A model generated the notes under the pieces. It was not told the DNA's origin. It was given only the letters and a program-made list of their open reading frames with translations, and did no database searches. Positions 5,747 to 25,948 of a DNA stretch of 27,519 bases are shown piece after piece. The stretch is taken from positions 1-27,519 of the IMG/VR virus record IMGVR_UViG_3300037237_000246. One strand, given 5' to 3'. The DNA is from a virus. The position numbers and the translations under genes are program-made. Every line of letters starts with the position of its first letter. Within the stretch, counting starts at the first letter, position 1.

Positions 5747-6130
5747 TTAGAAATAAGGTAGTTTTTGTGCAACCCCATCAATAATAACCGGAACACATCC
5801 CTTAGCACCGGAGATAGAACCGCAATTGGTGTAAGCGGATGTGGGTACCCTTAAAAAAGTAATATTGGTAAAAACTCCAGAGGGAGAAGTCACTATCCCC
5901 GTAAAAGTTCCAGACGGGGCGGATAAGGCACCTAAAAACGCCGGGGCGTTTAGAGATGGGATTTGATACCACTGAGAAAGTAAAATTTGCCCCGTCGTAT
6001 TAGAAGCCTGATTTACGAAAGGAACCACATCTAATGACCCCACCTGACTTCCCGTAAATGAGGGGAGATTAGTTATTGGAACTTCCGCCAAACAAAGACT
6101 TGAAAAAAGAAGGACGATTAAAAATTTCAT
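5747..6130 (-). CDS. Secreted small fibre-like protein inside the baseplate operon
   Basis: Residues 1-15 (MKFLIVLLFSSLCLA) are a Sec signal peptide with a likely cleavage after Ala15; no lipobox is present. The rest resembles virion fibre or decoration proteins: PITNLPSFTGSQVGSLDVVPFVNQ, then beta repeats of the type FLGALSAPSGTFTGIVTSPSG, then GCVPVIIDGVAQKLPYF, a common C-terminal ending of phage structural proteins. GGGGAGAA is a good ribosome binding site and the ATG overlaps the previous stop (ATGA). An exported protein between gp25 and gpJ is unusual. It may act in the envelope of the infected cell or use the hydrophobic N-terminus differently. Function not known. Confidence 0.7.
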   Translation of the reverse strand: MKFLIVLLFSSLCLAEVPITNLPSFTGSQVGSLDVVPFVNQASNTTGQILLSQWYQIPSLNAPAFLGALSAPSGTFTGIVTSPSGVFTNITFLRVPTSAYTNCGSISGAKGCVPVIIDGVAQKLPYF

Positions 6131-7259: not shown

Positions 7260-8196
7260 AAGTAACCGGAATTGAATTTTGCATAGGGAGAGACGGATCA
7301 ATAAAAAGAGTTATTACATTCGTATACCATTCAACTCCCCTGGTGTCTCCGACATGCTCTGCGACTGATACGTAATACACCCCATCAGTATTTATAGGAG
7401 CGGGAATAGATGCCGCCGTTCCTGGTGCAGATAGATTAATAGCTAATCTCTGAATAGAATTCTGATTCAATTGTACTTTTCTGGAGATTTGCAAATTTGG
7501 GTTTAAAAGACATTTAAAGTTTATTCCCTCTAGAGTTTGCTGTGGTGAACCAACCATTCCTGTTTCGCTATTTATTATTATTACTTCGCCAGGTAAGAAA
7601 GATTTAGTAGGAACAAAAACTAATTTCTCGTTTTGAATTGACCAAGGGCTTCCTGTTGTTTGCGTCACATCTCTTAAACATTTTTTTGTCTGCCCAAAAA
7701 GTACTTTAGCCCGATACCTTGCTCTAGCTTGAGTTACAGTAACGTTTCCGCTGGCCATAACACCGTAATCGGATAAACTTTTAATACAAGCCGCGATATC
7801 AGCTTGTGATGTTGTGTTTGCTGGAAGCGGCTGACTAATAACTGCATAATTATAAGCAAGGTGCCCGTCTCCCGCAATTATTTCAATAAAAGTATCGGTA
7901 GCGCTTTCTCTGCCAACAATTACTTGTTTTATATCACCTTGAAAGATGGTTCCAGTATTTCCTACATATCCCGCCTGAAGCTGGACTGTTGTGAATACTG
8001 TAGTGTTGGCTAATGAAAGGGCGGTATCGGGGGCGAGATTGTAAATCCTAATATCTGCCGCATTCGGTGTCTGAGAGTTGGAACGTTTAATTGAAAATAC
8101 GATCCTAAACTCTGATAAATCTACAACCTGACCCGCATCGGTAGAAACCAGAAGTTTACAATACCTACTGAATTGAACTCCCGGATTAGGGCTCAT
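7249..8196 (-). CDS. Baseplate hub protein (gp27/gpD-like)
   Basis: The 315-residue protein starts with PNPGVQFSRYCKLLVSTDAG and continues with DLSEFRIVFSIKRSNSQTPNAADIRIYNL and GYVGNTGTIFQGDIKQV. This is the first half of the hub proteins of small-baseplate myophages (gp27/gpD/Pam3 hub type). It forms the trimeric hub between tube and spike. The second half has SLSDYGV, RARYRAKVLFGQTKKCLRDV and SPWSIQNEKLVFVPT, also usual for the family. It sits between the plug and spike genes in the expected order. Its ATG overlaps the plug gene stop (ATGA). Confidence 0.85.
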   Translation of the reverse strand: MSPNPGVQFSRYCKLLVSTDAGQVVDLSEFRIVFSIKRSNSQTPNAADIRIYNLAPDTALSLANTTVFTTVQLQAGYVGNTGTIFQGDIKQVIVGRESATDTFIEIIAGDGHLAYNYAVISQPLPANTTSQADIAACIKSLSDYGVMASGNVTVTQARARYRAKVLFGQTKKCLRDVTQTTGSPWSIQNEKLVFVPTKSFLPGEVIIINSETGMVGSPQQTLEGINFKCLLNPNLQISRKVQLNQNSIQRLAINLSAPGTAASIPAPINTDGVYYVSVAEHVGDTRGVEWYTNVITLFIDPSLPMQNSIPVTYEQ

Positions 8197-8510
8197 GTTG
8201 ACACCACGAAATATAAATTAGAATCTATTCCTAGGTTGTCATAGGTTGGAACTGCATCTGGCATCCCATTAGTATAGATATATAATGACCCCCCAATTCC
8301 CAAATAACCAAGACCGGCTAGGCAATCTGCTCCTGTGATGAATGGTAACCCTGCTGCGATTTCCAATCCGGTAGCCGGATCCCCTAAATCAAATTCCCAT
8401 CCTCCGTCTGGTGCGTCATTCCAGTAAACAGTCATCTGATAACTAACGCCAGCAAGGACTATTTGAAAACTAGTAGCGTAGTTTTGTAACTGAATCAAAA
8501 ACCAATTCAT
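8193..8510 (-). CDS. Baseplate plug protein, Pam3 gp18-like
   Basis: A 105-residue protein with the pattern of the cyanophage Pam3 gp18 plug family: FQIVLAGVSYQMTVYWNDA near the N-terminus, GGWEFDLGDPATG, GLPFITGADCLAGLGYLGIGGSLYI, and DAVPTYDNLGIDSNLYFV at the C-terminus. In Pam3 this protein closes the baseplate channel before infection. Length and gene position (between Dit-like and hub genes) agree. The ATGA overlap with the hub indicates coupled translation. Confidence 0.85.
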   Translation of the reverse strand: MNWFLIQLQNYATSFQIVLAGVSYQMTVYWNDAPDGGWEFDLGDPATGLEIAAGLPFITGADCLAGLGYLGIGGSLYIYTNGMPDAVPTYDNLGIDSNLYFVVST

Positions 8511-8512
8511 GA

Positions 8513-9100
8513 TTATCCGCCACCTTTAAATAGCGCGCTGACTCCTTGCGCGCCAGTATTAATAAGAGAGGGGCTTCCAGTGTTTTGAATTCCTTGATTT
8601 GATGCCGGGTTTAATTGTTGAGATGCTGATATTTGACCAGTATTAATTGAGACAAATATGACCTGTTGAAGGGTTATATCTAGCGATAGGATATTTTCCG
8701 TTGTCTTATCAGTAACGCATCTTAACCCGGCCATGAGCATATTTGGGTATATTCGTTTAAGAGTAGTAACGGTGAAGGGAGTTCTATCGCTCTGCAAATC
8801 CAAAAACTGTTGGTAAAGCTGTGCTAATGCTGATTCTCCAGCTCCTGCAAAAATATTTGTGAAGCTGGATAACAAACTAGGCTGCTGAAGTATTGTCATT
8901 CTAAGAACGGTAGGTTCTTTAAAAGCATGGTCGGTGATGGCAGCGCCTGTTTGAACAGGTTGTTTAGTAATTGTAAGTTGGTCGTTAGTTTCTTCTTGAA
9001 TTATAACGCTTATTTCTATGTCATCGATGATACGCTTATTTACAAAAATACCACTAAGAGTCACCGGCACTAAGGCGGCTGCGCTTTCAAAATTACTCAT
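8513..9100 (-). CDS. Dit-like phage tail protein
   Basis: The protein has the N-terminal pattern of Dit-like tail proteins of contractile phages: PVTLSGIFVNKRIIDDIEIS, EETNDQLTITKQPVQTGAAITDH and FKEPTVLRMTIL, then a helix with LYQQFLDLQSDRTPFTVTTLKR and a beta segment NILSLDITLQQVIFV. It lies at the junction of tube and baseplate, after the tape measure in gene order. The C-terminal 40 residues (SQQLNPASNQGIQNTG onward) are low-complexity and probably flexible. It starts at ATG 9100, overlapping the tape measure stop (ATGA). Confidence 0.85.
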   Translation of the reverse strand: MSNFESAAALVPVTLSGIFVNKRIIDDIEISVIIQEETNDQLTITKQPVQTGAAITDHAFKEPTVLRMTILQQPSLLSSFTNIFAGAGESALAQLYQQFLDLQSDRTPFTVTTLKRIYPNMLMAGLRCVTDKTTENILSLDITLQQVIFVSINTGQISASQQLNPASNQGIQNTGSPSLINTGAQGVSALFKGGG

Positions 9101-11528: not shown

Positions 11529-13358
11529 TCACTGATTTACGTTAACCGCTATCAAAACTTCTTGAATTGCACCGGCCAATTTAACAGCTACTTGAATTGG
11601 AGGACAAATTCTTGCCGCTCTATTAGCCTGCGGTTGAAGCGCCACACTTTGAGCGTAGATATAAAATCCAGTTTTCAAATACTGGCCCGTAGTAATTTGT
11701 CCGAATGAAGGACCGTTCCACGTTCCACCCGCGATAAGACCGTTTTCCACACCCTCATTACAGGCAGCTCCGATACTGTTAGTGATTTGAGTAACGCCCG
11801 CATCCGTTTGTGGGATCTTGGTTGTTGTCGTATAGAGGACATTGAAAACAGCAGTCTGAATCGCGTTTTGCAACCAATCAACACCCTGAATGGTGTCAAT
11901 ATATTGACCGTTCGCAACCACACCGAATTGGATGATAAAAGTTCCGTTCACATAGGCGACGAATACGTTGATGTTTTTCGCCTGTAATGTCGTCGCCTGC
12001 GCGGGAGTGAGAACTTCTGCTGTGACCCCAGGTTCTTGTTTGAACATCAAGCAAATGGTTGTAGATGTCCCTTGGAAATTCACACTAAAAGCTCTTCCAA
12101 AAAGAGAAGCTACCGCATAGGGGTTCGTACTCGAGTACTGAGTGAATGATTGCGAGTAACCCAATGCCTGAAGTTGTGATCCTAAATCGTTTGTGACTAG
12201 AGAACTCAAAGCACCCGTCTCTTGAGTCGTCGCACCAAACAACCGAGTAATCGTTTGCGCTTGGATAAACGCGGCCACTGCCACGTATTGGGTATCGGTG
12301 ATGGACGTCAATGCGGCAAACATTAACCCGTACCAAGTCGATGAGGCATTAGCCAAAGCAGAAGCGCAAGCTGCCGGAGATTCAGAATTGAATGCAGGCA
12401 CCAAGGCTTGCGCAAGACCAGAAGTCATTTGAAGCATTGTCGAGATATCAGTCCCCGATGCAGGAGAAGTGGCAAAACCGACCGAAGACGACACCGTTCC
12501 ACCAGCCAAATCGGCAGCAGAGAGAGTGATATTGGTACTCGATTTCGACATCGCAAAACTATTTCCGGCCGTCCCTACTACCCCGTAGGTGATAGTCAAA
12601 ACGGAGAGAAGAGTGGAATAAGTCGCGACGTTTAAATCAGAATCGGCTGCGGCATTTGCATTCAAATAAAGTTGAAGATTCGCAGCAGTCGCGGCGGAAG
12701 TCGCTCCAATCAAAACTTGATGGGTAGAAGGTGCCGAGGAAACGAAAGTGATTGTTCTTCCGTTTAGAGTCAAAGTGTCATTGGCAGTCGTAGTGCCTGT
12801 AAAAGTCACGGTCCCCGTTGCCTGAAGTCCTAATCCCGTGGTGCCGGATGTGATAACGAAATTCGTTCCATTCCAGGTGCACGTGGCCGTTCCGCCGGCA
12901 GAAGTGATTCCCGCCGTAATGACTGAAGCGACACCATTCAAATTGGTTTGGGCCGTGAAATTAAGGCCGGTGACGGTGAGAGCGGCACCATCGATTGTCA
13001 TGTCAAAACCGCCAGAGGCAATTGCAGTCCAGAGGGCTAAAGTCTGCTGCGTCGAGGAAAGAATTCCACCATCATTTAAAGCTGCGGTATTGGCCGCGAT
13101 CCACCTTCCCACCATGCACTGCGCGGGTTGAGGAGACTGAGAGAAAAAGAGTTGAGCGGCGAGATATTCAGGTGCTGTGATTCCAAAGTCTGTCGCAACT
13201 GCTCCGATTGCCGTATAAGAACGAAAACGCTGAGTTCCATTTATCACATTGGAATCACCGGCTATCATCAAAACGCCGAAAGTAAGTTCTGCGACTCCAC
13301 TAGGGGTTAGACTCACCGTGACGTTAACTAAGTTCGATACGGAAAGTCCTTGTGACAT
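11529..13358 (-). CDS. Tail sheath protein (DUF3383 family) with inserted beta domain
   Basis: The sheath pattern of DUF3383 is clear: SQGLSVSNLVNVTVSLTP at the start, FRSYTAIGAVATDFGITAPEY, CMVGRWIA, and in the C-terminal half ADTQYVAVAAF-like TDTQYVAVAAFIQAQT, RLFGATTQE and ANRAARICPPIQVAVKLAGAIQ. At 609 residues it is about 100 longer than usual. The excess lies at about residues 181-288, a beta-rich domain (ATGTVTFTGTTTANDTLTLN ... NSFAMSKSSTNITLSA) of a type that recurs in phage structural proteins. It splits the usual TSGTTG - SSVGFAT junction. It contracts to drive the tube. Ribosome binding site AAAGGGAAAAC precedes ATG 13358. Confidence 0.88.
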   Translation of the reverse strand: MSQGLSVSNLVNVTVSLTPSGVAELTFGVLMIAGDSNVINGTQRFRSYTAIGAVATDFGITAPEYLAAQLFFSQSPQPAQCMVGRWIAANTAALNDGGILSSTQQTLALWTAIASGGFDMTIDGAALTVTGLNFTAQTNLNGVASVITAGITSAGGTATCTWNGTNFVITSGTTGLGLQATGTVTFTGTTTANDTLTLNGRTITFVSSAPSTHQVLIGATSAATAANLQLYLNANAAADSDLNVATYSTLLSVLTITYGVVGTAGNSFAMSKSSTNITLSAADLAGGTVSSSVGFATSPASGTDISTMLQMTSGLAQALVPAFNSESPAACASALANASSTWYGLMFAALTSITDTQYVAVAAFIQAQTITRLFGATTQETGALSSLVTNDLGSQLQALGYSQSFTQYSSTNPYAVASLFGRAFSVNFQGTSTTICLMFKQEPGVTAEVLTPAQATTLQAKNINVFVAYVNGTFIIQFGVVANGQYIDTIQGVDWLQNAIQTAVFNVLYTTTTKIPQTDAGVTQITNSIGAACNEGVENGLIAGGTWNGPSFGQITTGQYLKTGFYIYAQSVALQPQANRAARICPPIQVAVKLAGAIQEVLIAVNVNQ

Positions 13359-13409
13359 ATTGTTTTCCCTTTGTTTTTAAAGTGGAGAGTTCTTTTCCTA
13401 ACCATGGAA

Positions 13410-13430
13410 ATGCTCCTCGAACGGGAGCAT
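13410..13430 (-). promoter_or_regulatory. Hairpin in the sheath leader
   Basis: ATGCTCC (13410-13416) and GGAGCAT (13424-13430) form a 7-bp stem with a 7-base loop, 52 bases before the sheath start. There is no U-tract after it in either direction, so it is not an obvious terminator. On the minus strand the distal arm contains GAGGAG, which could serve as a ribosome binding site for a 25-codon ORF (ATG 13405 to stop 13328). A TATAAG lies at 13446-13441 on the minus strand, a weak -10 candidate. Function is inferred only. Confidence 0.35.
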
Positions 13431-13482
13431 CTCGTCAATACTTATATTAAGTCATTTTTCTCTTTTGTGGTACCATTAATTC

Positions 13483-13827
13483 ATGCCCTCAATTGAATCG
13501 GAAAAAAACCACGGTGCGTGCCGATCCTCGCGTTGGCCATCGGTACGTAAAGCGTTTCTTCTAAAAAATCCATTCTGCTTAGTTTGTGAAGGAAATAAAA
13601 AACTAGAAGTTCACCATATAAAACCTTTTCACCTTACTCCGAATTTAGAACTCGACCCGACAAATCTCATTACTCTTTGCGAGAATAATAAAGATGGCGT
13701 TAACTGCCACCTACTCTTTGGCCATCTTGGTAATTTTAAATCTCTCAACGTGAATGTTGTGGGGGACTCGAAAAATTGGCGAGAAAAAATTAGACTTCGT
13801 CCCTCGGGCGATATATTAATGCAGTGA
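13483..13827 (+). CDS. HNH endonuclease
   Basis: This 114-residue protein has the small phage HNH nuclease pattern: FLLKNPFCLVCEGNKKLEVHHIKPF, then LELDPTNLITLCENNKDGVNCHLLFGHLGNF. The first zinc-type Cys pair (FC-LVCE), the HH at the beta hairpin, the catalytic Asn/Asp region (DPTNLITLC) and a final CH--FGH are all present, so it looks active. It is encoded opposite to the tail operon, between lysis genes and sheath, overlapping the 3' end of the small gene at 13790-13990 tail to tail. It could be a homing-type endonuclease or a packaging helper; the terminase is not in this window. No clear ribosome binding site was seen. Confidence 0.85.
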   Translation: MPSIESEKNHGACRSSRWPSVRKAFLLKNPFCLVCEGNKKLEVHHIKPFHLTPNLELDPTNLITLCENNKDGVNCHLLFGHLGNFKSLNVNVVGDSKNWREKIRLRPSGDILMQ

Positions 13828-13990
13828 TTTTTCCTTTTGTATTAAGAGCGAAACTCAAAACGAAATAAGTATTATTCCAGATAACCGCTTTTGGGATTAA
13901 ATCTTCCCCCTCGTTTTCGTTCTCATCTATCCAACAAATGTGCTTACATTGGGGGGAGATCCAAAGATAGGCTTTATATTGTTTTTTCAC
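13790..13990 (-). CDS. Hypothetical protein downstream of M15 peptidase (66 aa)
   Basis: I chose GTG 13990 because it overlaps the stop codon of the M15 peptidase as GTGA, the kind of coupling used throughout this genome. A longer form from ATG 14044 would overlap the peptidase by 58 bases and add residues with no support. The protein (VKKQYKAYLWISPQCKHICW at the start, then an acidic loop ENENEGEDLIP, then beta-like WNNTYFVLSFALNTKGKITALIY) looks like a small beta-sheet protein. Function is not recognised. Its position in the lysis group suggests a helper role, but this is weak. Confidence 0.5.
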   Translation of the reverse strand: MKKQYKAYLWISPQCKHICWIDENENEGEDLIPKAVIWNNTYFVLSFALNTKGKITALIYRPRDEV

Positions 13991-14355
13991 GGGATAAAAA
14001 AACGATTCCCACTTGCGGGGGCTCTGCAAGTTATGTGAGCCCATCGTGGAGTATAAGTACGAGACTCAAGATACAAACCCAAGCGAATAAGGATATCAAC
14101 GTTAGATATACAAAAATCGTAGATTTTACCATCCGAATCAGAAACATCTACCGCCTCCCCGGTTAAATGGGCCGATTTTTTAATACTGGGATTTATCTGC
14201 ATCTGAAGTTGTGGAGTCCTTAATCCACTGGTTACTTGGAAAGGTTTTCCGAAAGACTGTTCTAGTTGAGTTACTAGTCCAGCAAGACCCGTCATATTTT
14301 CTATCTGCTCTTTGGTGGCTATCAACTGGTGATTGTTTATCTGTTCGATTGTCAT
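13987..14355 (-). CDS. Peptidase M15A, endolysin-like cell wall peptidase
   Basis: A 122-residue single-domain zinc peptidase of the M15 (Hedgehog/DD-peptidase fold) family. The sequence has VTSGLRTPQLQMQINPSIKK, then SAHLTGEAVDVSD with the H-x6-D zinc ligands (His63, Asp70), and RWAHITC with the third zinc histidine (His107), ending SGNRFFIP as family members commonly do. It cleaves peptide bonds in peptidoglycan stem peptides or crossbridges and is the best candidate for the phage endolysin. There is no signal peptide, so a holin would be needed. It is coupled by ATGA to the 83-residue gene upstream and by GTGA to the gene downstream. Confidence 0.88.
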   Translation of the reverse strand: MTIEQINNHQLIATKEQIENMTGLAGLVTQLEQSFGKPFQVTSGLRTPQLQMQINPSIKKSAHLTGEAVDVSDSDGKIYDFCISNVDILIRLGLYLESRTYTPRWAHITCRAPASGNRFFIP

Positions 14356-14603
14356 TGTTCCTCTTTAATCTGTGGAGCATTTCCCACTGACGAGCCAAAT
14401 CTCTCAGAGAATTTTTCAAGAGGTAAAGGATGATCCGTTCTAACAGCTGCAACCACCGCTTTTTTAAAATGCCACATAGCCCAGATTTGCCTAAGAAACG
14501 GTAGTTCTTTCCAAACCACATAAGCCCCTTCCACGGCGATTTTAATCGGTGGTGAAATATTAAGGGGGGCTAAGATCATCTGTAGCCAAAAAGGAAGAAT
14601 CAT
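14352..14603 (-). CDS. Hypothetical protein in the lysis group (83 aa)
   Basis: A strong AAGGAGGGGG ribosome binding site precedes ATG 14603, and the stop overlaps the M15 peptidase start (ATGA), so it is certainly part of this operon. The N-terminal half is hydrophobic (MILPFWLQMILAPLNISPPI, then AVEGAYVVWKELPFLRQIWA) and may lie against or in the inner membrane. The C-terminal half is charged and ends with IKEEQ. It could be a holin-like or accessory lysis protein, judged only by hydrophobicity and position. A second frame (14180-14521) overlaps it but has no ribosome binding site and was not called. Confidence 0.65.
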   Translation of the reverse strand: MILPFWLQMILAPLNISPPIKIAVEGAYVVWKELPFLRQIWAMWHFKKAVVAAVRTDHPLPLEKFSERFGSSVGNAPQIKEEQ

Positions 14604-14639
14604 AGCCCCCTCCTTATCTTCGACCGAGGAGTTGAATTT

Positions 14640-14957
14640 TTATTTTTTGATGACCTGCACCAAAGCAGATAATGCCACTGCAGCGTCAAGCACTTTTTGT
14701 AGGTAGTCTTGAACACTCAGATTGGCTGGAAAATTCTCGGAAGAAGAGATGAAACTAAGCAGGTCCGCCCTATCGCTATCTGAGAGATTTTCATACTCGG
14801 ACACGATTAAGGGAGCGGCTGACATGATGGCGGCGGCGTCGACGGCTAACGTCGGCAATTCCGGAAGCACGACTAATAATGAACCCTGACTGATTTGGCT
14901 GATCGCAAGGGCTAGGTCCGAAACCCCTTTTAATACTGCTTTTAGATTGGAATCCAT
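14640..14957 (-). CDS. Hypothetical helical protein in the lysis group (105 aa)
   Basis: AAAGGAGCGCTA gives a strong ribosome binding site at good spacing before ATG 14957. The protein is helical: [20 protein letters not shown], then a hydrophobic stretch [20 protein letters not shown], then an acidic region [20 protein letters not shown] and a C-terminal helix. Small phage proteins with this arrangement are often found next to lysis genes but have no defined role. It overlaps the 3' part of the membrane coiled-coil gene by 167 bases in another frame. One hydrophobic segment could cross the membrane, so a holin-like role is possible but unproven. Confidence 0.7.
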   Translation of the reverse strand: MDSNLKAVLKGVSDLALAISQISQGSLLVVLPELPTLAVDAAAIMSAAPLIVSEYENLSDSDRADLLSFISSSENFPANLSVQDYLQKVLDAAVALSALVQVIKK

Positions 14958-15189
14958 TAGCGCTCCTTTTGTTAGCTGCTTCGTTTCTATTTTGCACCAA
15001 TTCTTTCAAATCTTCTACGGCAACCTGAAGTTTTGCAATTTCTCGACTTTGACGAGATATTTGGTGCGCGGTTTGAGTAAGTGCGTCATCAAAAGATGTG
15101 ATCATTCGGGAAGCAAACCACCCATTTATGGAAACAAGCGTTACAAAAGCAAAACCAAATAGCTTTTTGAAATTCGAATTTGTTTTCAT
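14791..15189 (-). CDS. Membrane-anchored coiled-coil protein (spanin- or holin-like)
   Basis: Residues 1-30 hold a short basic N-terminus and one membrane helix ([20 protein letters not shown]). Residues 33-70 form a heptad-like helix ([39 protein letters not shown]). One N-terminal transmembrane helix followed by a periplasmic coiled coil is the arrangement of inner-membrane spanins. The C-terminal 54 residues overlap the next gene in a different frame and become Arg-rich low complexity (SRRRRRHH), so only the first ~78 residues look selected. No ribosome binding site was seen before ATG 15189. The true end may be shortened by an indel, or this may be a genuine long overlap. Confidence 0.55.
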
Positions 15190-15206
15190 GGTGTGCTAGT
15201 ATTGTA
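15173..15206. promoter_or_regulatory. Divergent overlapping promoter candidates
   Basis: Between the divergent membrane coiled-coil gene and the papain-like protease, the plus strand has an extended -10 (TGCTAGTAT, -10 at 15197-15202) with a weak -35 TTCGAA at 15173. The minus strand has TACAAT (reading 15206-15201), a good -10, with a weak -35. The two -10 elements overlap by two bases, so the two promoters could not be occupied at once. Prediction from consensus only. Confidence 0.4.
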
Positions 15207-15224
15207 TCTCAAAAGGGGAGGAAA

Positions 15225-15956
15225 ATGAAAACTTACACGGTAAAACAATATTCGACGACTCGGGGAAAAGGACTGAAGTGGAAACCCGTGACGGGTCTTA
15301 GGTATTCCACTCGAGAGGAAATTTTATCCATCCCAACAAGCCTAGATTACCGTTCTAAAATCAGCCCCGCTCTAGATCAAGGACAAGCCGGTTGCTGCTA
15401 TGCATTCTCTGTTGCGGGATGCTTGACTGATCAACTTTTAATCGCCGGAAAAGGAAATGGAGTTCTCTCCCCGCAATATTTCATGGACGCCAGCGGTGAC
15501 GGAGTAGAAGGGGGCTGGCTAGATGTGTCACAATTCGCCACTTCCCCTAAAGGTGCACCTACGTTAGCGAGTTATCCCTACAAAGCAGTAGACGAGGATT
15601 TGCAGCCCTTTACGATAGCCTCTAGCTCCTTTGGATGGGCCTATACGGGTAATGGTTCAGCTAGCCCCACCACACAGGATTTAAAGACTGCCCTTGTGAA
15701 ATACGGACCGCTTGCTACCGTGATGTACGCTAGCAATGAATTTGAGCAATACGTTTCAGGAGTCTTTAACGACGACGTTCCTAATCAATCCCCAAATCAT
15801 GCGGTTATGCTTTGCGGTTACGACGATGAAAAACAGGCATGGCTTTGTAAAAATAGTTGGGGCACGGACTTTGGAATCAACGGCTATTTTTGGATAGCCT
15901 ACGGCTGCTGCTCAATTGGAGTGGAAGCAAGTTTTTTTTTACTCAAAAACCCGTAA
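15225..15956 (+). CDS. Papain-like cysteine protease (C1A family)
   Basis: The catalytic set of papain is complete: Q52 in [11 protein letters not shown] with nucleophile Cys58, His192 in [11 protein letters not shown] and Asn210 in [32 protein letters not shown] matches the usual mature N-terminus, and SYPYKAVDE matches the conserved YPY region. The 40-residue leader is far shorter than a normal inhibitory propeptide and there is no signal peptide, so the enzyme would be active in the cytoplasm. I chose ATG 15225 because AGGGGAGG lies just before it; an upstream ATG at 15180 adds unrelated residues. It is plus strand inside the minus-strand operon, with its own promoter candidate. Substrate unknown. 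Confidence 0.88.
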
Positions 15957-16001
15957 TTCCCTGGTATCAAGCAGTGTGGAATTTCCTTTTTGGATGGGTT
16001 T

Positions 16002-16020
16002 AAAAAACGAGTCGTTTTTT
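16002..16020. terminator. Possible bidirectional terminator
   Basis: A palindrome AAAAAACGA-G-TCGTTTTTT lies at the tail-to-tail junction of the protease gene and the Cys-rich secreted protein gene, ending on the stop codon of the latter. The U-run for either direction is inside the stem, and the stem is AT-rich with only two G-C pairs, so it would be weak. Position rather than strength supports the call. Confidence 0.4.
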
Positions 16021-16423
16021 ATTTCAAATGCGCTACCGGAATCACAAGGCATGCCGCTTGCAATGCCGCCATTAATCCACCACCACAAGTTGGATTTGAA
16101 AATCCAGTACATTGCCAACTCGATTGGTTAAGTCTTGAAGACACGAATGCGCTAATTGCATCAACCGCCGAGGGGCAAATAAGGCTTGCAATCGGCCCCC
16201 CTACAGTACAAGTCCCGGCCACATTTAGCACCGAGAAGAATGACGCCGCTACCGCAGTCTGATTACAAGAACAGGCATTGGAAACGGTAGTCGCTAAGTC
16301 CTGGCTAAGTCCTGTGACAGCACCGCAGAGAGGTGCTTTGATGGCAGAGCAACCGGACATTGCGTTTCCCCGAGTAGCGATTAGGCCGAGGAGAATGAGA
16401 GTAACAAGAAGTGGGCTTTTCAT
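16019..16423 (-). CDS. Secreted cysteine-rich protein
   Basis: Residues 1-21 (MKSPLLVTLILLGLIATRGNA) are a Sec signal peptide with cleavage after Ala21. The mature 113 residues contain nine cysteines (25, 33, 51, 53, 72, 83, 105, 113, 125) in an Ala/Ser/Gly-rich sequence, with two similar-looking Cys pairs (SGCSAIKAPLCG and QCTGFSNPTCGGG). Such spacing suggests disulfide bonds in the periplasm or outside the cell. AAAGGAC precedes the ATG. No family is recognised. It might modify or protect the infected cell surface, as the neighbouring exported proteins may. Confidence 0.65.
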   Translation of the reverse strand: MKSPLLVTLILLGLIATRGNAMSGCSAIKAPLCGAVTGLSQDLATTVSNACSCNQTAVAASFFSVLNVAGTCTVGGPIASLICPSAVDAISAFVSSRLNQSSWQCTGFSNPTCGGGLMAALQAACLVIPVAHLK

Positions 16424-16426
16424 TTT

Positions 16427-16840
16427 TTATGTCCTTTGTAAGCTGGCTGTTACTGACACGCCAGAGTATTTTAAGTTTGCATTCATGGAAATCAGTTTGA
16501 GGTATTGGTTGCTGATGTCTAGGCACGCAGTTCCAGTTCCTAATCCATCAAGTACTACGGATACCGTTGCCACGTTCCCATCGACGTGAGTGACGGTCAT
16601 GTGCGCGGGACCAATGTCGACTACCTTGCCAACGGCGCTCGCTGCAGGGGAAAGCAAATCCGAAGGGGGAATGGTGTAGCTAGCCAAGATTGGTTCAGTC
16701 TTGGCAAAAAATCCAACTCCGACTTTCACACTGCCATCGCAGGTAACGACACCACTGTCTAAGTCGACTTTGTACTCGATGTTGCCACCTTCGAGGAGCC
16801 CAGAACCGTTAATCTTGTATTTCTCAATTTGTGTGCTCAT
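16427..16840 (-). CDS. Hypothetical beta-rich protein (137 aa)
   Basis: I chose ATG 16840 because AAGGAGATAAA lies directly upstream and the ATG overlaps the stop of the frameshifted ORF before it (ATGA). A start 24 bases upstream has no such support. The protein is rich in beta strands and Gly/Val (MSTQIEKYKINGSGLLEGGN, VTCDGSVKVGVGFFAKTEPI, VDIGPAHMTVTHVDGNVATV) and has no signal peptide. The strand pattern suggests an OB-like or decoration-type fold. Function not recognised. It is followed three bases later by the Cys-rich secreted protein gene. Confidence 0.65.
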   Translation of the reverse strand: MSTQIEKYKINGSGLLEGGNIEYKVDLDSGVVTCDGSVKVGVGFFAKTEPILASYTIPPSDLLSPAASAVGKVVDIGPAHMTVTHVDGNVATVSVVLDGLGTGTACLDISNQYLKLISMNANLKYSGVSVTASLQRT

Positions 16841-17003
16841 TTTATCTCCTTGGCCAATTCCCATAATCTCTTGGGTTGGTGGTTCGCCTGTTCATTACAG
16901 GCTTTGTCAAATATTTTTGGACCTATATAAGGGGCAACCTTCCAATCGACAAGGATTCAATATCACCAGATGGGAGAACTTTGTACGATTCGGTTTGAGT
17001 CAT
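16837..17003 (-). pseudogene. Frameshifted small gene sharing a C-terminal motif with its neighbour
   Basis: ATG 17003, after a TAGGAG site, opens a frame that stops at 16923 after 26 residues. In the -1 frame, open only from about 16956 after a stop, the sequence reads VDWKVAPYIGPKIFDKACNE and continues to a TGA at 16837-16839 that overlaps the next gene start (ATGA). Joined, they would give a protein of about 55 residues. VDWKVAPYIGPKIFDKAC is clearly related to VDWKIAPALAPRIFERVC at the end of the secreted protein at 17116-17880. Either a single-base indel broke a small paralogous gene, or the two frames are joined by recoding, or the assembly has an error. Confidence 0.5.
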
Positions 17004-17011
17004 TTCATCTC

Positions 17012-17119
17012 CTAGCTAGTAGTGAATACTTTAAAACAATTCGGACAGTAAACTGTCTGTGTTGGTGGATTGAATTTCAAGGTTTCGTTACAATCCGGAC
17101 ATTTTACTTCATCACTCAT
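17012..17119 (-). CDS. 35-aa zinc ribbon protein
   Basis: The ATG at 17119 overlaps the stop of the secreted protein gene (ATGA), and the 35-residue frame has two CPxC knuckles: VKCPDCNETLKFNPP and TVYCPNCFKVF. This four-cysteine zinc ribbon is a well known small fold. It has no signal peptide and would stay in the cytoplasm. Zinc ribbons this small often bind nucleic acid or another protein. It is too short to appear in ordinary gene calls. The zinc-binding residues and the coupling make it very likely a real gene; its partner is unknown. Confidence 0.65.
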   Translation of the reverse strand: MSDEVKCPDCNETLKFNPPTQTVYCPNCFKVFTTS

Positions 17120-17880
17120 TTACAAACCCTTTCAAAAATCCTAGGCGCCAATGCCGGAGCAATCTTCCAGTCTACAAATCTCTCGACGACCATGCTCAGT
17201 GGCCCACAAACGAAGGCCCACCCGGCACCGAACGTTGAAATCGAACAAGTTATGTCTGTAACCCAGTACGACACCACTGGTGCCAGCCCCCGGTAATGAT
17301 TTGGCTTACTTGGGTGTACGTGAGCATCCCCGCAGAAATGCGCTGTGAATTCTCCCAATCCTGTAGGACACGGGTTAAAGCAAATTGGCAGTGCGTAATT
17401 AATCGTTTTGATATCGGATAAACGAAGGGCATAACATACTTCATATCCAAGCAGGTGCTCGATTTTACTGTAAGCCCCCGCAAGCCAACTCGACAACGGC
17501 TTGAAATCCCCGATGTCATAGCCCTTTCGAGAAATAATCCTTTCGATTTCCCCTTCATGGTAAACCATCTCCTGCTCTAATTGTATTGCCTCTTCCTCAA
17601 ATCCTCTGGCACCTAAGTTCCAGGCGGCAATCTTCATTATTCCTTGGATTGCCTTATCTGTGATATGCGCCATTTTAAGTGGAGTATCAAAGGAACGGCC
17701 AAAATTATTAGCCCTACGCTCAGCAAGAAAACAAGACACGTATTTGCCTGCGCTGTAGTTATCGTAATCTGAACAGGTTCCGTCACCATTCACCTCCGCA
17801 TACCATTTATCCGCCTGCTTTTGGTCGGCACCAGCAATATTAGTGAAAATCACAATAAGTGCTAATATTAGTAGTTTCAT
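17116..17880 (-). CDS. Secreted cysteine-containing protein (254 aa)
   Basis: Residues 1-18 (MKLLILALIVIFTNIAGA) are a Sec signal peptide. The mature part has a charged helical region (DKWYAEVNGDGTCSDYDNYS to ISRKGYDIGDFKPLSSW) with cysteines at 36 and 50, and a Cys/His-rich segment (PICFNPCPTGLGEFTAHFCG, DAHVHPSKPNH) at about 165-195. A hydrophobic segment at 199-230 could insert in a membrane. The C-terminus VDWKIAPALAPRIFERVCK repeats a motif in the frameshifted ORF downstream. GAGGACT precedes the ATG. I do not recognise a family. It could be an envelope-located exclusion or lysis-timing factor; that is a guess from export. Confidence 0.65.
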   Translation of the reverse strand: MKLLILALIVIFTNIAGADQKQADKWYAEVNGDGTCSDYDNYSAGKYVSCFLAERRANNFGRSFDTPLKMAHITDKAIQGIMKIAAWNLGARGFEEEAIQLEQEMVYHEGEIERIISRKGYDIGDFKPLSSWLAGAYSKIEHLLGYEVCYALRLSDIKTINYALPICFNPCPTGLGEFTAHFCGDAHVHPSKPNHYRGLAPVVSYWVTDITCSISTFGAGWAFVCGPLSMVVERFVDWKIAPALAPRIFERVCK

Positions 17881-17882
17881 CT

Positions 17883-18848
17883 TTAATAGTCCTCTATCGA
17901 ATCTTCCTGCCGATGAAGCATATACTTTCTGCAGTCATTTATCAGTTTATGGTTTCCAATCACTTTTGTAAGGCCTTGTGTGTCGTGAACCAAGTTTCCA
18001 ATCGGGTCATAGTGGTCATGAACCAAAATCTCCCAACGTTCGCGGTATTTCCTTCTAGCTTTAGGGCCATGAAATTTGTGCTTCAAAAACCCAGGTACAT
18101 AACCTAATTGTCCATTTGTGTGCCTGAAGGCCTTATCCTGCCATTGACCGCAAAGAGTAAAGAAGTTTTTATTCATCCCCTTGTGTATAGTGTTCATCAC
18201 TTCACCAATTGAAGCAAAAGCCATATGGTGGTCAGCACTTCCAAGGATAGCAAAATCCATCAGGCCACCTACCGCCTCCCAGAAATCTCTTCTAGCACAC
18301 CACGCAAAACCACTGTGTGCATATTGATACGGTTGAGAGGGGTGCATTTGTTTTGGGACACCTAATTGATGCTGATAGCATAATGATTTGAATGTTTGAA
18401 GGACCCGGCCTGTAAATCCAAGGTCCAGACAATCGCTCCACGGCTGGATGAGGGAATAGTCCTGCATTTGATGAAGGGATTCCAATGCCCATCCTTCATG
18501 GTCAAAGAACACGTCCGCATCGCACCAGGAGACATATTTCCAATCAAGGGGGAGAAGGTGCTTAACCCCTAGGTTAATCATATTTTCCTTGTGCCATATA
18601 GGCTGGTGGGAGTGAAGCTGAAGATGCTGCGGGTTATCCTTTTCCGTTACTTCAAAACGCCTATCCCCGTAAGCAGTTTCTACAACGTAGACTTTTACGT
18701 TTGGCGTTTTCAACATCGCTGCATACCACTCCCTAAAGAGTCGAATACGCGATTGATACCGCATTGGATTCTCAATGACACCAATCACATGGAGCGTGTT
18801 GTCAGAGTTTAGGTCCGTTTTGTGGATATGTTGAACTAGGTGATTCAT
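17883..18848 (-). CDS. GT-A type glycosyltransferase
   Basis: The protein has a nucleotide-sugar binding start (TLHVIGVIENPMRYQSRIRL), a WKYVSWCDADVFF segment with the D-x-D metal/nucleotide site, and an acceptor-side region with AHSGFAWCARRDFWEAVGGL and GSADHHMAFASIG. The C-terminus has HGPKARRKYRERWEILVHDH, usual in phage GT-A enzymes of this type. It probably transfers a sugar to phage DNA, a virion protein or host glycan. I took ATG 18848 because it overlaps the stop of the tiny ORF upstream (ATGA); ATG 18854 is also possible. It is followed by the secreted protein gene at 17880. The acceptor is not known. Confidence 0.8.
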   Translation of the reverse strand: MNHLVQHIHKTDLNSDNTLHVIGVIENPMRYQSRIRLFREWYAAMLKTPNVKVYVVETAYGDRRFEVTEKDNPQHLQLHSHQPIWHKENMINLGVKHLLPLDWKYVSWCDADVFFDHEGWALESLHQMQDYSLIQPWSDCLDLGFTGRVLQTFKSLCYQHQLGVPKQMHPSQPYQYAHSGFAWCARRDFWEAVGGLMDFAILGSADHHMAFASIGEVMNTIHKGMNKNFFTLCGQWQDKAFRHTNGQLGYVPGFLKHKFHGPKARRKYRERWEILVHDHYDPIGNLVHDTQGLTKVIGNHKLINDCRKYMLHRQEDSIEDY

Positions 18849-18901
18849 TTGCATTTTCCTATTTGACTAAGGCTAAAAACTAAAAGAATTAAAATTTTCA
18901 T
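18845..18901 (-). CDS. 18-aa hydrophobic leader-like ORF
   Basis: MKILILLVFSLSQIGKCK is encoded between the LamG-like gene (stop at 18903) and the glycosyltransferase, with its TGA overlapping the ATG of the latter. The sequence looks like a bare signal peptide with a terminal Cys. It fills an otherwise empty 50-base gap. It may couple translation, may be a remnant of an exported gene, or may be chance. No strong ribosome binding site. Confidence 0.3.
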   Translation of the reverse strand: MKILILLVFSLSQIGKCK

Positions 18902-18902
18902 T

Positions 18903-19688
18903 TTAAAAGCCCCATTTAGCATGTTCATAAGTGCTTAGCTGAGTAATTTCAGGGGCGGTAAGAGCCCTATTGTAAATTTCTATTTCCGAAAGTGTAACAC
19001 TAAACCCAGCGTCTAATAGCGCCTCGTTGAAAAGGAATGCGAAGTTCCACGACGAGAAAGTTCCAGAAGTAAGGGGTGCTACCGCAATTCCGTTGTAGCT
19101 GGCAGCTGCCGTCGTCGTAGTGTTGGGCTGTATGACCAATAAATATGGTACTCCTGTTGAAAGACCTGGACTTACTTTAAATGCGTAATTAGCACCTTGA
19201 TTAATGTTTAACTGTGCCGGCCCAAAACCAATCCAATTCCCGTTGCTGGAATTAGACAACCAAAATCCCAGTGATGACCCGACAAATTCGGCGACCATTA
19301 CTATTGTTGGTAGGTTAATATTTATGTTTGGGAATGACATTCCTTGCCCGGTTCCGCTTGTGGTAAGTCCAGGCAATGCACTATTAAAAGATGTTGCCGA
19401 ATAAATTGGTTTTGCGGCAGTTGTTCCTTGCGTGGCATTATTGCTACCGCCACTTAAATCGTTCCACTGAGAGACTTGATTAGAACCGTTCTTGGTAATG
19501 CTAGGAGAATTCGAAGCATCAAGCCAGAGCGACAAACCCGAAAGACTAGCCGGAGTAAAAGGCGGAGGAGTCGGACTAGCTGTTGCCGTGGGAGAGGGAG
19601 TTAATCCGTGGCTCGTAATACTCCCCGTTAAAAAGGCGAAAGCCCCCGTCACAAAAACGAGGGCTATGAATATTAAACTTAAACGCAT
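18903..19688 (-). CDS. Secreted LamG-like/concanavalin-like lectin
   Basis: An N-terminal hydrophobic segment (LSLIFIALVFVTGAFAFLTG) is followed by a Pro/Thr/Ser linker (TPSPTATASPTPPPFTP). A jelly-roll domain of the LamG/concanavalin type follows: GLSLWLDASNSPSITKNGSN, QWNDLSGGSNNATQ, and a C-terminal LSEIEIYNRALTAPEITQLS ending. The last part is a signature seen in many phage and bacterial LamG modules. The signal and linker suggest an exported or anchored carbohydrate-binding protein. A typical signal peptidase site is not clear, so it could remain anchored. It overlaps nothing and follows the decoration-like gene closely. A terminator-like hairpin lies inside its signal peptide coding region. 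Confidence 0.75.
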   Translation of the reverse strand: MRLSLIFIALVFVTGAFAFLTGSITSHGLTPSPTATASPTPPPFTPASLSGLSLWLDASNSPSITKNGSNQVSQWNDLSGGSNNATQGTTAAKPIYSATSFNSALPGLTTSGTGQGMSFPNININLPTIVMVAEFVGSSLGFWLSNSSNGNWIGFGPAQLNINQGANYAFKVSPGLSTGVPYLLVIQPNTTTTAAASYNGIAVAPLTSGTFSSWNFAFLFNEALLDAGFSVTLSEIEIYNRALTAPEITQLSTYEHAKWGF

Positions 19689-19693
19689 ATATA

Positions 19694-20017
19694 TTATTGT
19701 CCCTCGATGACAGTAGCAAAACTCCCTGTCGGGGAAATTAAATATACTGAATTGGATGGTGCTTTAGCGGGTTCATAATTTCCACCCGCTGGGATAGGAA
19801 CTCCGTCAGAGGTGTTCTGGTTAGAATTTCCGAATCTAGCAAACATCGTATTTGACCCAGTGTTCATGATAATCAAATACGACCTAAGCCCATTTTGTTT
19901 TAAAGCGTTTGTGGAAGTGGTACTCACGGTAATATAGGCGGGGGATCCAAACATCACGTCATTTGCGAAGACCGAATGGGAAAACAGACCAACTAAACCT
20001 ATCATGATATACCGCAT
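19694..20017 (-). CDS. Secreted small decoration-like protein (107 aa)
   Basis: Residues 1-18 (MRYIMIGLVGLFSHSVFA) are a Sec signal peptide. The mature part matches a small beta-barrel found in many phage head regions: ITVSTTSTNALKQNGLRSYL, IIMNTGSNTMFARFGNSNQN, then DGVPIPAGGNYEPAKAPSNS and SFATVIEGQ. In phages that domain normally has no signal peptide and is a decoration or head-fibre protein. AAGGAGA precedes the ATG. It directly follows the neck terminator gene, marking the start of the accessory island. Export of such a domain is the interesting point: it may coat the infected cell or work in the periplasm. Confidence 0.7.
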   Translation of the reverse strand: MRYIMIGLVGLFSHSVFANDVMFGSPAYITVSTTSTNALKQNGLRSYLIIMNTGSNTMFARFGNSNQNTSDGVPIPAGGNYEPAKAPSNSVYLISPTGSFATVIEGQ

Positions 20018-20031
20018 TGGATTTCTTCTCC

Positions 20032-23801: not shown

Positions 23802-25184
23802 TTATTTATTTGCAGTCCTTTTGGCCCAATATTCTTCATTAATTTTGTTTATCTCTTCAGGCGTTTTCGCACCTTTGGGATTCAGAGCAGCTCTTGCGAG
23901 ATTGATATCTGTCGTTCGAGTTCTCGCTAAGTCCTGAGATCTCGTGACTTTTAACATCTCACTCGCTCCGATAAAAACGGCATCAATCGTTTTCGCGTTC
24001 TTCACATCCAAAGGCTTCCCACCCGTGAATTGTTCGATAATCTTTTTCCCGTCTTTCGTCGCATAAGCGGCAAGAAGGGCTCTGACTTTAGCGTTGCCTT
24101 TTCCGGCATGTTTCATCCCGGGAGCAAGTATTTCGACTCGAGACGCTGTATCCCCAACCATAGTGGACTCTTCAAAATCGTCATCTTCAGACTCTTTTGG
24201 CTCTCCATTTTTTCCTTTTCCTTCTTTGGCTCCTGGCTCTTCTTCATCCGTCGCCTCTTCTTCCTCGTCATCATCTTCGGATTCTTCGGCATCTTTCGCC
24301 ATCATCGCGTCTATCCAGGCATCTCGTGCCATTTTTTTGTCTTCCATTTCCTTGTCTTTGGCTTTCTTGGCTTTTTCTTCTTCACTTTCATCATCTTTGG
24401 CTTCGATATGAGCGGGCTGATTTTGGGTGGGTTGAGTGGAGGCATCTTTTCCGCCGTCTTTTTTCCCACCCATGAAAGCATCAATCTTATCCATCGCGGC
24501 TTTAAAATCATCATAGGCGACAAAACCTTTCTCCGGAATCGTCGCAGCAGAGGCACCTGCGTCTTTCGTCTCGGCTGCGGCTTTGAGGGCTTCATCTTGA
24601 GCTTTTCCAAAAATTCCTTTGATTTTTTCTGCGAGTGTCATTTCAATACCCTTTCCTTTATGGTCATTTATAGCGTAAGAGGAGCCCGCTCTTCCCTCTT
24701 CAACGAGAGCGAGATGGTTTCCGATAATTTTCGATTGAGATCCTCTACCAATTCCGAGCTGCGTATATTCGGCTTCATAGCCACAAGAAACTTCCCGAAG
24801 TCCTTTTTTAACAAGGCTAATGGCCTCTTTATCGGTAATGAGTAAATCTGCGACCAAATCGTTCTCGGCGATCCCCGTCCCTCTTCGGATATTTTGCAAA
24901 ATACCTTTAGTAAGCTCTGCCCAGTTTTTGGGTTCAACAAAATCTGGTGGGTGAGTAATGGTAACCGGCTTTCCCTCGAAAGAAGCGATTGTCTCAGGGC
25001 GGAATACTTCTTCGCTATTTCTCTGAACGATAGCTTTTCCATCTGCCCCGACTTCAAGTGGCGTCTCCCCTTGTCCGTAAATCATTTCGCCCGTGCGAGC
25101 AATCGAGACCCCGACACAGACGAGATACCCCTCGGGCGTTTCGTGCATGTTTTCTGAAATCTTTGATGTCGTGTAAAATTTCAT
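23802..25184 (-). CDS. Prohead protease fused to scaffold (DUF2213)
   Basis: Residues 1-170 form the DUF2213 protease: ETPEGYLVCVGVSIARTGEM, GKPVTITHPPDFVEPKNW with probable catalytic His78, and GLREVSCGYEAEYTQ with probable catalytic Ser133. Residues about 180-460 are helical, Lys/Glu-rich scaffold-like sequence with a very acidic central part (DAEESEDDDEEEEATDEEEP) and a C-terminal capsid-binding helix region (LNPKGAKTPEEINKINEEYW). Such fusions act as internal scaffolds that digest themselves after assembly. The ATG is at 25184 in the short gap after the secreted protein gene, and the only visible ribosome binding site (AAGAAAATGA) is weak. Confident. Confidence 0.87.
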   Translation of the reverse strand: MKFYTTSKISENMHETPEGYLVCVGVSIARTGEMIYGQGETPLEVGADGKAIVQRNSEEVFRPETIASFEGKPVTITHPPDFVEPKNWAELTKGILQNIRRGTGIAENDLVADLLITDKEAISLVKKGLREVSCGYEAEYTQLGIGRGSQSKIIGNHLALVEEGRAGSSYAINDHKGKGIEMTLAEKIKGIFGKAQDEALKAAAETKDAGASAATIPEKGFVAYDDFKAAMDKIDAFMGGKKDGGKDASTQPTQNQPAHIEAKDDESEEEKAKKAKDKEMEDKKMARDAWIDAMMAKDAEESEDDDEEEEATDEEEPGAKEGKGKNGEPKESEDDDFEESTMVGDTASRVEILAPGMKHAGKGNAKVRALLAAYATKDGKKIIEQFTGGKPLDVKNAKTIDAVFIGASEMLKVTRSQDLARTRTTDINLARAALNPKGAKTPEEINKINEEYWAKRTANK

Positions 25185-25192
25185 TCATTTTC

Positions 25193-25948
25193 TTAAAGGG
25201 GCGATCCAGCAACCGGTGTTAAGTCAAATTGCAATTCAATAACGCTTCCCGCAGCTGGAGCTGTTGGAGTGAAAGTCGTTGTACTAGAACTCGTAGCCGC
25301 AAGAGCTACCAAAATTATTTGACCACCACTAAGAGAGCCCGTTTGAATTCCTAAAGTTGGTAGTCCGACGACTTCAAGATGATCAATCCCAGAACCCGAA
25401 GCCTTCTGAGTCATTACGACCCCGGTCCCAGTCCCACCGCTTCCGGTGACTGCTAGAAATGCCTGGGATACGGTAGGGAGAAGACCTGCGGGGAGACCTA
25501 AAAATTGCCATTGAGCTTGAGTTGTCGTTCCGACTGAAGAAATCACGTACGGGTTTCCCGCCGAGAGACCGGAAGTCACATTGACTGGAGTTCCAGAAGC
25601 CGGTGCTCCTAAAGAATGAGCATCATTTAAATGGCCTGAATACCCAGTTGCGAATTGAACGACGATATATCCGGGAGAAGGATTAATTAATCCAGCAGGG
25701 GGAGTTCCGGAAGTGTTCATGAAAACTTGAGAAATTCCCTGAAGGGCTTGACCACCTGTTACCGTCAAATTTCTTTGCCCTAAAGGTTGGGTATTATCGA
25801 CGATAAATTTTGCCGTGATTACGCCAGACCCACTTAGAACAAAATCGTTTTGAACTTCACCAAACTGGTTTCTAAGACTCATGGTGGGAAGAGATGCTGC
25901 AAAAAGGACAGGAGAGAGCACAAGGAGGAACAAGAGGAATCTTTTCAT
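25193..25948 (-). CDS. Secreted protein of virion-like sequence between MuF and protease genes
   Basis: Residues 1-17 (MKRFLLFLLVLSPVLFA) are a Sec signal peptide. The remaining 230 residues are beta-rich and low in charge: TVTGGQALQGISQVFMNTSG, PSPGYIVVQFATGYSGHLND, GNPYVISSVGTTTQAQWQFL and GSGIDHLEVVGLPTLGIQTG. Sequences of this kind occur in phage head regions, where they have no signal peptide. TAGGAGACATCACTC is a good ribosome binding site. It lies in the head operon with a promoter-like sequence before it. Function unknown; it may be exported to the periplasm, or the N-terminus may be used as a membrane anchor. Confidence 0.7.
   Translation of the reverse strand: MKRFLLFLLVLSPVLFAASLPTMSLRNQFGEVQNDFVLSGSGVITAKFIVDNTQPLGQRNLTVTGGQALQGISQVFMNTSGTPPAGLINPSPGYIVVQFATGYSGHLNDAHSLGAPASGTPVNVTSGLSAGNPYVISSVGTTTQAQWQFLGLPAGLLPTVSQAFLAVTGSGGTGTGVVMTQKASGSGIDHLEVVGLPTLGIQTGSLSGGQIILVALAATSSSTTTFTPTAPAAGSVIELQFDLTPVAGSPL

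Follow-up and report, generated by a model that had tools for sequence, protein, structure and literature searches.

The locus examined here raises the question of what a papain-like (C1A) protease does in a bacteriophage when it is made without any export signal. The window, i.e., the whole stretch of DNA analyzed, is a 27.5-kb IMG/VR record of a myovirus, in which Pfam identifies a sheath protein (DUF3383), Baseplate J, Mu-F, the end of a portal gene, and the major capsid protein. The protease, P0001, has 243 amino acids and is encoded on the plus strand at 15225-15956, with an ATG at 15225, a stop at 15956, and a strong Shine-Dalgarno sequence (GGGGAGG, 15215-15221) ahead of the start. As stated in a preliminary description of this DNA, it lies on the strand opposite to its surroundings, the neighbors from 13.8 to 27.5 kb being on the minus strand; an HNH gene (13483-13827) is likewise on the plus strand.

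Results and Discussion

Catalytic Domain

The Pfam profile Peptidase_C1 (PF00112) matches P0001 with an E-value of 5.2e-36 and 125.2 bits against a cut-off of 20.7, a score that cannot be attributed to chance, and its positions 1-216, nearly the whole profile, correspond to residues 36-235. Among PDB sequences, cathepsin K matches best (E 8e-24). Q52 of the oxyanion hole (codon 15378-15380), the nucleophile C58 (15396-15398), H192 (15798-15800), and N210 (15852-15854) occur in catalytic order and are invariant in an alignment of 13 phage sequences, as are W212 and G220, and the substrate-binding Gly96-Gly97 pair is kept. The AlphaFold2 model built from this alignment (pLDDT 72.8, pTM 0.78) is of moderate confidence, with a pLDDT of about 58 for leader residues 11-30 and below 50 for residues 100-135. 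In Foldseek searches it matches procathepsins and cathepsins with E-values down to 1e-16.

P0001 is thus a C1A protease with a modeled two-domain papain fold and intact catalytic residues, and is predicted to be an enzyme. The preliminary description had numbered the four active-site positions correctly and had named structure prediction and a homologue search as checks; the former returned the papain fold, and the latter yielded phage homologues, which in the 13-sequence alignment all carry the four residues. The likeness to papain and cathepsins K, L, and S accordingly covers the near-full profile, the Q/C/H/N residues, the Gly-Gly site, and the fold, while the differences lie in the missing signal peptide, a 36-residue leader that has no I29 match, and the absence of the four disulfide cysteines checked.

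Relatives of the Protease

The claim that C1A proteases are rare in phages holds, in that a tblastn search with P0001 hits only 6 of 50,697 phage records. Caudovirales Peptidase_C1 proteins are also present in the BFVD library. Scanning P0001 alone against viral and genome contigs gave no relatives, and the mixed alignment A1 contained no conserved stretch usable for scanning. Xylellain-type C1A genes of Myoviridae and Siphoviridae were described earlier by Kordis and Turk (2023, PMC10380794), who note that intracellular prokaryotic C1A enzymes lack signal peptides; their xylellain-type remark is the only directly relevant one that we found in the literature on phage C1A proteases.

Membership of P0001 in this short, single-domain, signal-less, phage-borne xylellain type was considered and given little weight. 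Xylellain (PDB 3ois) is not among its 60 best PDB matches, and in the maximum-likelihood tree, the deep forks of which are weak, P0001 clusters with the signal-bearing papains of phages (90/95), on a long, separate branch (0.97) and away from the xylellain-type group. A signal-less protease that does belong to the xylellain type (3ois, E 2.8e-45) is found in the neighbor phage G001, which must then have acquired it independently. Judged from these comparisons, P0001 is a cathepsin-type, apparently cytoplasm-adapted variant, unlike the xylellain-type phage proteases already reported.

The signal-bearing phage papains (G028/L099, L102, L100, L101, L115, and L118) are 26-38% identical to P0001 over the domain and share a short proregion with a Gly motif; their predicted export and their retained disulfide cysteines set them apart. 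In the myovirus contig L100, a lipoprotein-like trypsin-family (S1) protease gene lies near the papain gene (7999-8874, PF00089 E 3e-12). The papains of L106 (9164-10978) and L105 (9164-10770) show the block order B-A-C relative to L103, the His/Asn block preceding the Cys-helix block and the C-terminal block following; the two contigs come from different metagenomes and agree to 99.93% over 10.8 kb.

Signal-less bacterial C1 peptidases with 23-30% identity to P0001 occur on plasmids (Deinococcus pDAETH-2, Priestia), where, unlike in the present case, a chagasin-type (I42) inhibitor gene is nearby. On the Deinococcus aetherius plasmid (L008, 3815-8132), genes for a C1 peptidase, an I42 inhibitor, and a caspase-family protein follow one another. 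An analogous protease-inhibitor pair was discarded for P0001, as no I42 gene was found in the window or in 13 related phage records and the neighboring protein w16427 matches no inhibitor fold (model pLDDT 83, best fold match E 0.006).

Compartment

No hydrophobic segment is found in the first 35 residues of P0001, where the best 10-residue Kyte-Doolittle mean is 0.0, compared to 2.2-3.3 in the signal-bearing homologues. The four papain disulfide positions checked are also empty, A55, A89, V94, and L126 taking the places of C22, C56, C63, and C95, respectively. These are papain numbers, C22-C63 being one of the papain disulfides. A clear signal segment is present in nine phage homologues, all nine of which have C22 and eight the complete set, L104 lacking C56 and C95. 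C22 is missing from six signal-less proteins (P0001, G001, FLC9, Shaeky, Sulfitobacter, and Priestia) and retained in L117, L121, and Deinococcus, such that cysteine loss in signal-less proteins is not a strict rule. The difference, 9/9 versus 3/9, corresponds to a one-sided Fisher p of about 0.005, uncorrected for relatedness. L117 (5968-6981) is a phage papain that has no signal peptide but a C-terminal hydrophobic anchor, and comes directly after a homologue of the cassette protein w14640 (see below).

The absence of both signal and disulfide cysteines points to the cytoplasm, and the simplest reading is that their joint loss is an adaptation of P0001 to this reducing compartment. The protein thus probably works inside the bacterium, or exits only when the cell bursts. 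The cytoplasmic location had been proposed earlier from the missing signal peptide, and the missing cysteines lend it independent support.

The same losses, together with the long separate branch, could also be the mark of a decaying gene that has shed its signal peptide and its function. We consider this very improbable, the least probable of the readings weighed here, since the domain is complete, the catalytic residues, W212, and Gly96-Gly97 are kept, there is no frameshift, and the Shine-Dalgarno sequence is strong. An envelope or surface protease serving competition is another reading: the exported relatives would strip surface proteins, resulting in superinfection exclusion or receptor clearance, and P0001 would do likewise after its release at lysis. 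It draws on the occurrence, in other phages, of relatives with a signal, a lipoprotein-like character, or a membrane anchor, on the signal-segment genes adjoining P0001, and on the trypsin-family gene near the L100 papain. For a protein having neither an export signal nor the disulfide cysteines suited to an oxidizing compartment, such a function appears unlikely.

Leader

The 36-residue N-terminal leader (15225-15332), which the preliminary description had put at about 40 residues and correctly found to be short and signal-less, is a candidate pro-segment. Its sequence lines up with the short proregions of the secreted phage relatives, with a near-invariant Gly16 and a common K-G-L-K/R pattern. 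It matches neither I29 nor any other Pfam profile, and an I29 propeptide is thus not recognizable from the sequence. When the P0001 model is compared with the PDB by Foldseek, proforms rank first, and several of them give a TMq (up to 0.82, 3qj3_B) above the values of mature cathepsins, about 0.64-0.72. The better superposition on proforms implies that part of the leader is modeled along the propeptide path, which is suggestive only, because the model confidence in this segment is low to moderate.

The length of the leader is no proof that an inhibitory propeptide is missing, since that of cathepsin X has only 38 residues (PMC10650516). Cathepsin X is lysosomal, and the likeness of P0001 to it concerns the length and position of the leader alone. 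Taken together with the shared Gly motif and the fit to procathepsins, this leaves the earlier statement that P0001 has no inhibitory propeptide unsupported.

Lysis Cassette

P0001 lies in an accessory/lysis island (13359-20031) between the sheath gene (ending at 13358) and the neck-terminator gene (from 20032). The neck-sheath gap is 6.7 kb here, compared to 54-1288 bp in the 40 relatives that have both genes on one locus. The island contains an M15 peptidase endolysin (13987-14355; PF08291 E 1.7e-7, phrog_894 E 4.4e-9), an Rz-like spanin candidate, the HNH gene, and several signal-segment genes. The spanin candidate is the gene divergent from P0001 (14791-15189); it matches phrog_739 weakly (E 5.9e-5 on the first 79 residues) and has an N-terminal hydrophobic segment, in line with its earlier designation as a membrane gene. 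A small hydrophobic protein (14352-14603) is a holin candidate by position, no holin being identified by homology in the cassette. All genes just named except HNH are on the minus strand, as are those that encode the small protein w14640 (14640-14957), a small Cys-containing protein with a signal segment (16019-16423), the beta-rich w16427 (16427-16864), and w17116, which has a signal segment (17116-17880).

A syntenic cassette is found in G028, whose capsid is 64% identical to that of the window. Its signal-bearing papain, 31% identical to P0001, lies between a w14640 homologue, from which it is divergent, and homologues of w17116 and w16427. A weak endolysin match is located at the other end of the contig and would adjoin the cassette if the record is circularly permuted. 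With respect to the sheath, the G028 cassette runs the other way, and the mutual orientation of protease and cassette genes is unchanged; they thus appear to move as a unit. Homologues of w14640 and w17116 adjoin papain genes also in L117 and L118, respectively, the w17116 homologue of L118 having a four-base overlap with the start of the protease gene. When the w17116 alignment was used for a scan, G028 and L118 were the only other records returned, with patterns derived from these same three sequences. Neither w14640 as a scan query nor w17116 scanned against the phage and plasmid collections gave any match.

The cassette location is compatible with a lysis-related role of P0001. It may also be mere neighborhood, because P0001 is antiparallel to the lysis genes.

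Some further genes of the region deserve mention. The product of 17883-18854 and its homologues in L107 (6884-7990) and L101 (9037-10086) have no Pfam match and are glycosyltransferase-like by eye only; members of this group adjoin the C1 protease genes of L101 and G001. Signal-peptide-like starts occur within the structural block at 5747-6130, 16019-16423, 17116-17880, 18903-19688, 19694-20017, and 25193-25948 of the window and at 666-3905 of L123; homologues of the gene at 25193 occur in 19 loci, and in G028 four genes of this kind are consecutive. An O-antigen ligase-like membrane gene (614-1696; Wzy_C, below cut-off) has a homologue adjoining the sheath gene in L094.

Promoter Region

The preliminary description had proposed that P0001 and the divergent gene are driven by overlapping -10 elements and used to the exclusion of one another. 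The overlap is present, the extended -10-like TGCTAGTAT on the plus strand (15194-15202) sharing 2 bases with TACAAT on the minus strand (15206-15201). As promoters, however, these elements find little backing: TGCTAGTAT is not above chance window-wide, 17 copies of TGNTANNAT lie in the window, compared to 14.2 +/- 4.1 for shuffled sequence, i.e., chance level, and no sigma-70-type promoter is found in 14900-16100, where shuffles give 1.8. Were transcription of the minus strand to begin about 7 nt below TACAAT, only about 5 nt would remain to the ATG of the divergent gene, without a Shine-Dalgarno sequence. Mutually exclusive use is thus unsupported, and we have down-weighted the promoter switch. 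By consensus, no convincing terminator was found for P0001. G028 (L091) shares the divergent arrangement, with 113 bp between the starts, and shared regulation of the pair is therefore possible.

These results bear on a role in host takeover, according to which P0001 would be expressed early, under an opposite-strand promoter of its own, and would cleave a single cytoplasmic host factor, or a small number of them, of transcription, metabolism, or defense. The missing signal peptide and cysteines suit such a role, as does the antiparallel orientation, which keeps the gene off the transcript of the late genes, and G001 independently carries a signal-less C1 protease. Yet the nearest relatives of P0001 are predicted to be exported, the conserved place of the gene is within a lysis cassette and not an early region, and no promoter rises above chance. 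We regard host takeover as possible but doubtful; it ranks next after an accessory protease of the lysis cassette.

Distribution among Related Phages

Searching with the capsid gave 13 relatives (capsid identity at least 60%, records of 25 kb or more), of which G001 and G028 have PF00112 genes; L102, found via its protease, is a further carrier. P0001 is absent from most close relatives and antiparallel to the surrounding operon, the features by which a phage moron is recognized. A capsid alignment searched against GTDB gave a single match in a Nitrospirota bin; the contig is a phage contig that is itself an IMG/VR record, and the host assignment was dropped.

This distribution weighs on the suggestion, made earlier, that P0001 matures a virion protein, and likewise on the alternative of its ejection with the DNA. 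P0001 lies among structural genes and a cytoplasmic location would fit. However, the protease is missing from most of the relatives that share these head and tail genes, P0001 is antiparallel to the structural operon, and the DUF2213 gene adjoining the capsid gene (23802-25184) is the better candidate for a prohead component. Virion processing is consequently less likely, and we rate it as quite improbable, though not as low as gene decay.

Proposed Role

The reading that we tentatively favor, at slightly short of even confidence, is that P0001 is an accessory, moron-like protease of the lysis cassette that either works in the cytoplasm or leaves through the holin upon lysis. It rests on the adjoining M15 endolysin and Rz-like spanin candidate, the syntenic G028 cassette, and the enlarged island. 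P0001 would be a cathepsin-type papain, kin to the phage papains that bear a signal but refitted for the cytoplasm. It would probably be made with a short N-terminal pro-segment over the active-site cleft, which is probably removed autocatalytically, and the mature enzyme would degrade host proteins late in infection. Alternatively, as leaderless endolysins do, it would pass the holin lesion and then attack envelope proteins at lysis.

A broader proposal, which we regard as rather doubtful, is that P0001 belongs to an undescribed class of lysis-associated phage cathepsin-type papains, accompanied by the lysis cassette and the partner w17116. Like the export variants of endolysins, these would occur in exported, lipoprotein-like, membrane-anchored, and leaderless forms and help to dismantle the host envelope or contents at lysis.

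If active, P0001 would be a cathepsin-type cysteine protease at work in phage-infected bacterial cells, a setting from which few proteolytic factors of takeover or lysis are known. The G028 protein, an exported form, and the leaderless one of the window, set in syntenic cassettes, offer a natural comparison of a papain moved from the periplasm to the cytoplasm. P0001 makes proteolysis as an added step of phage lysis directly testable.
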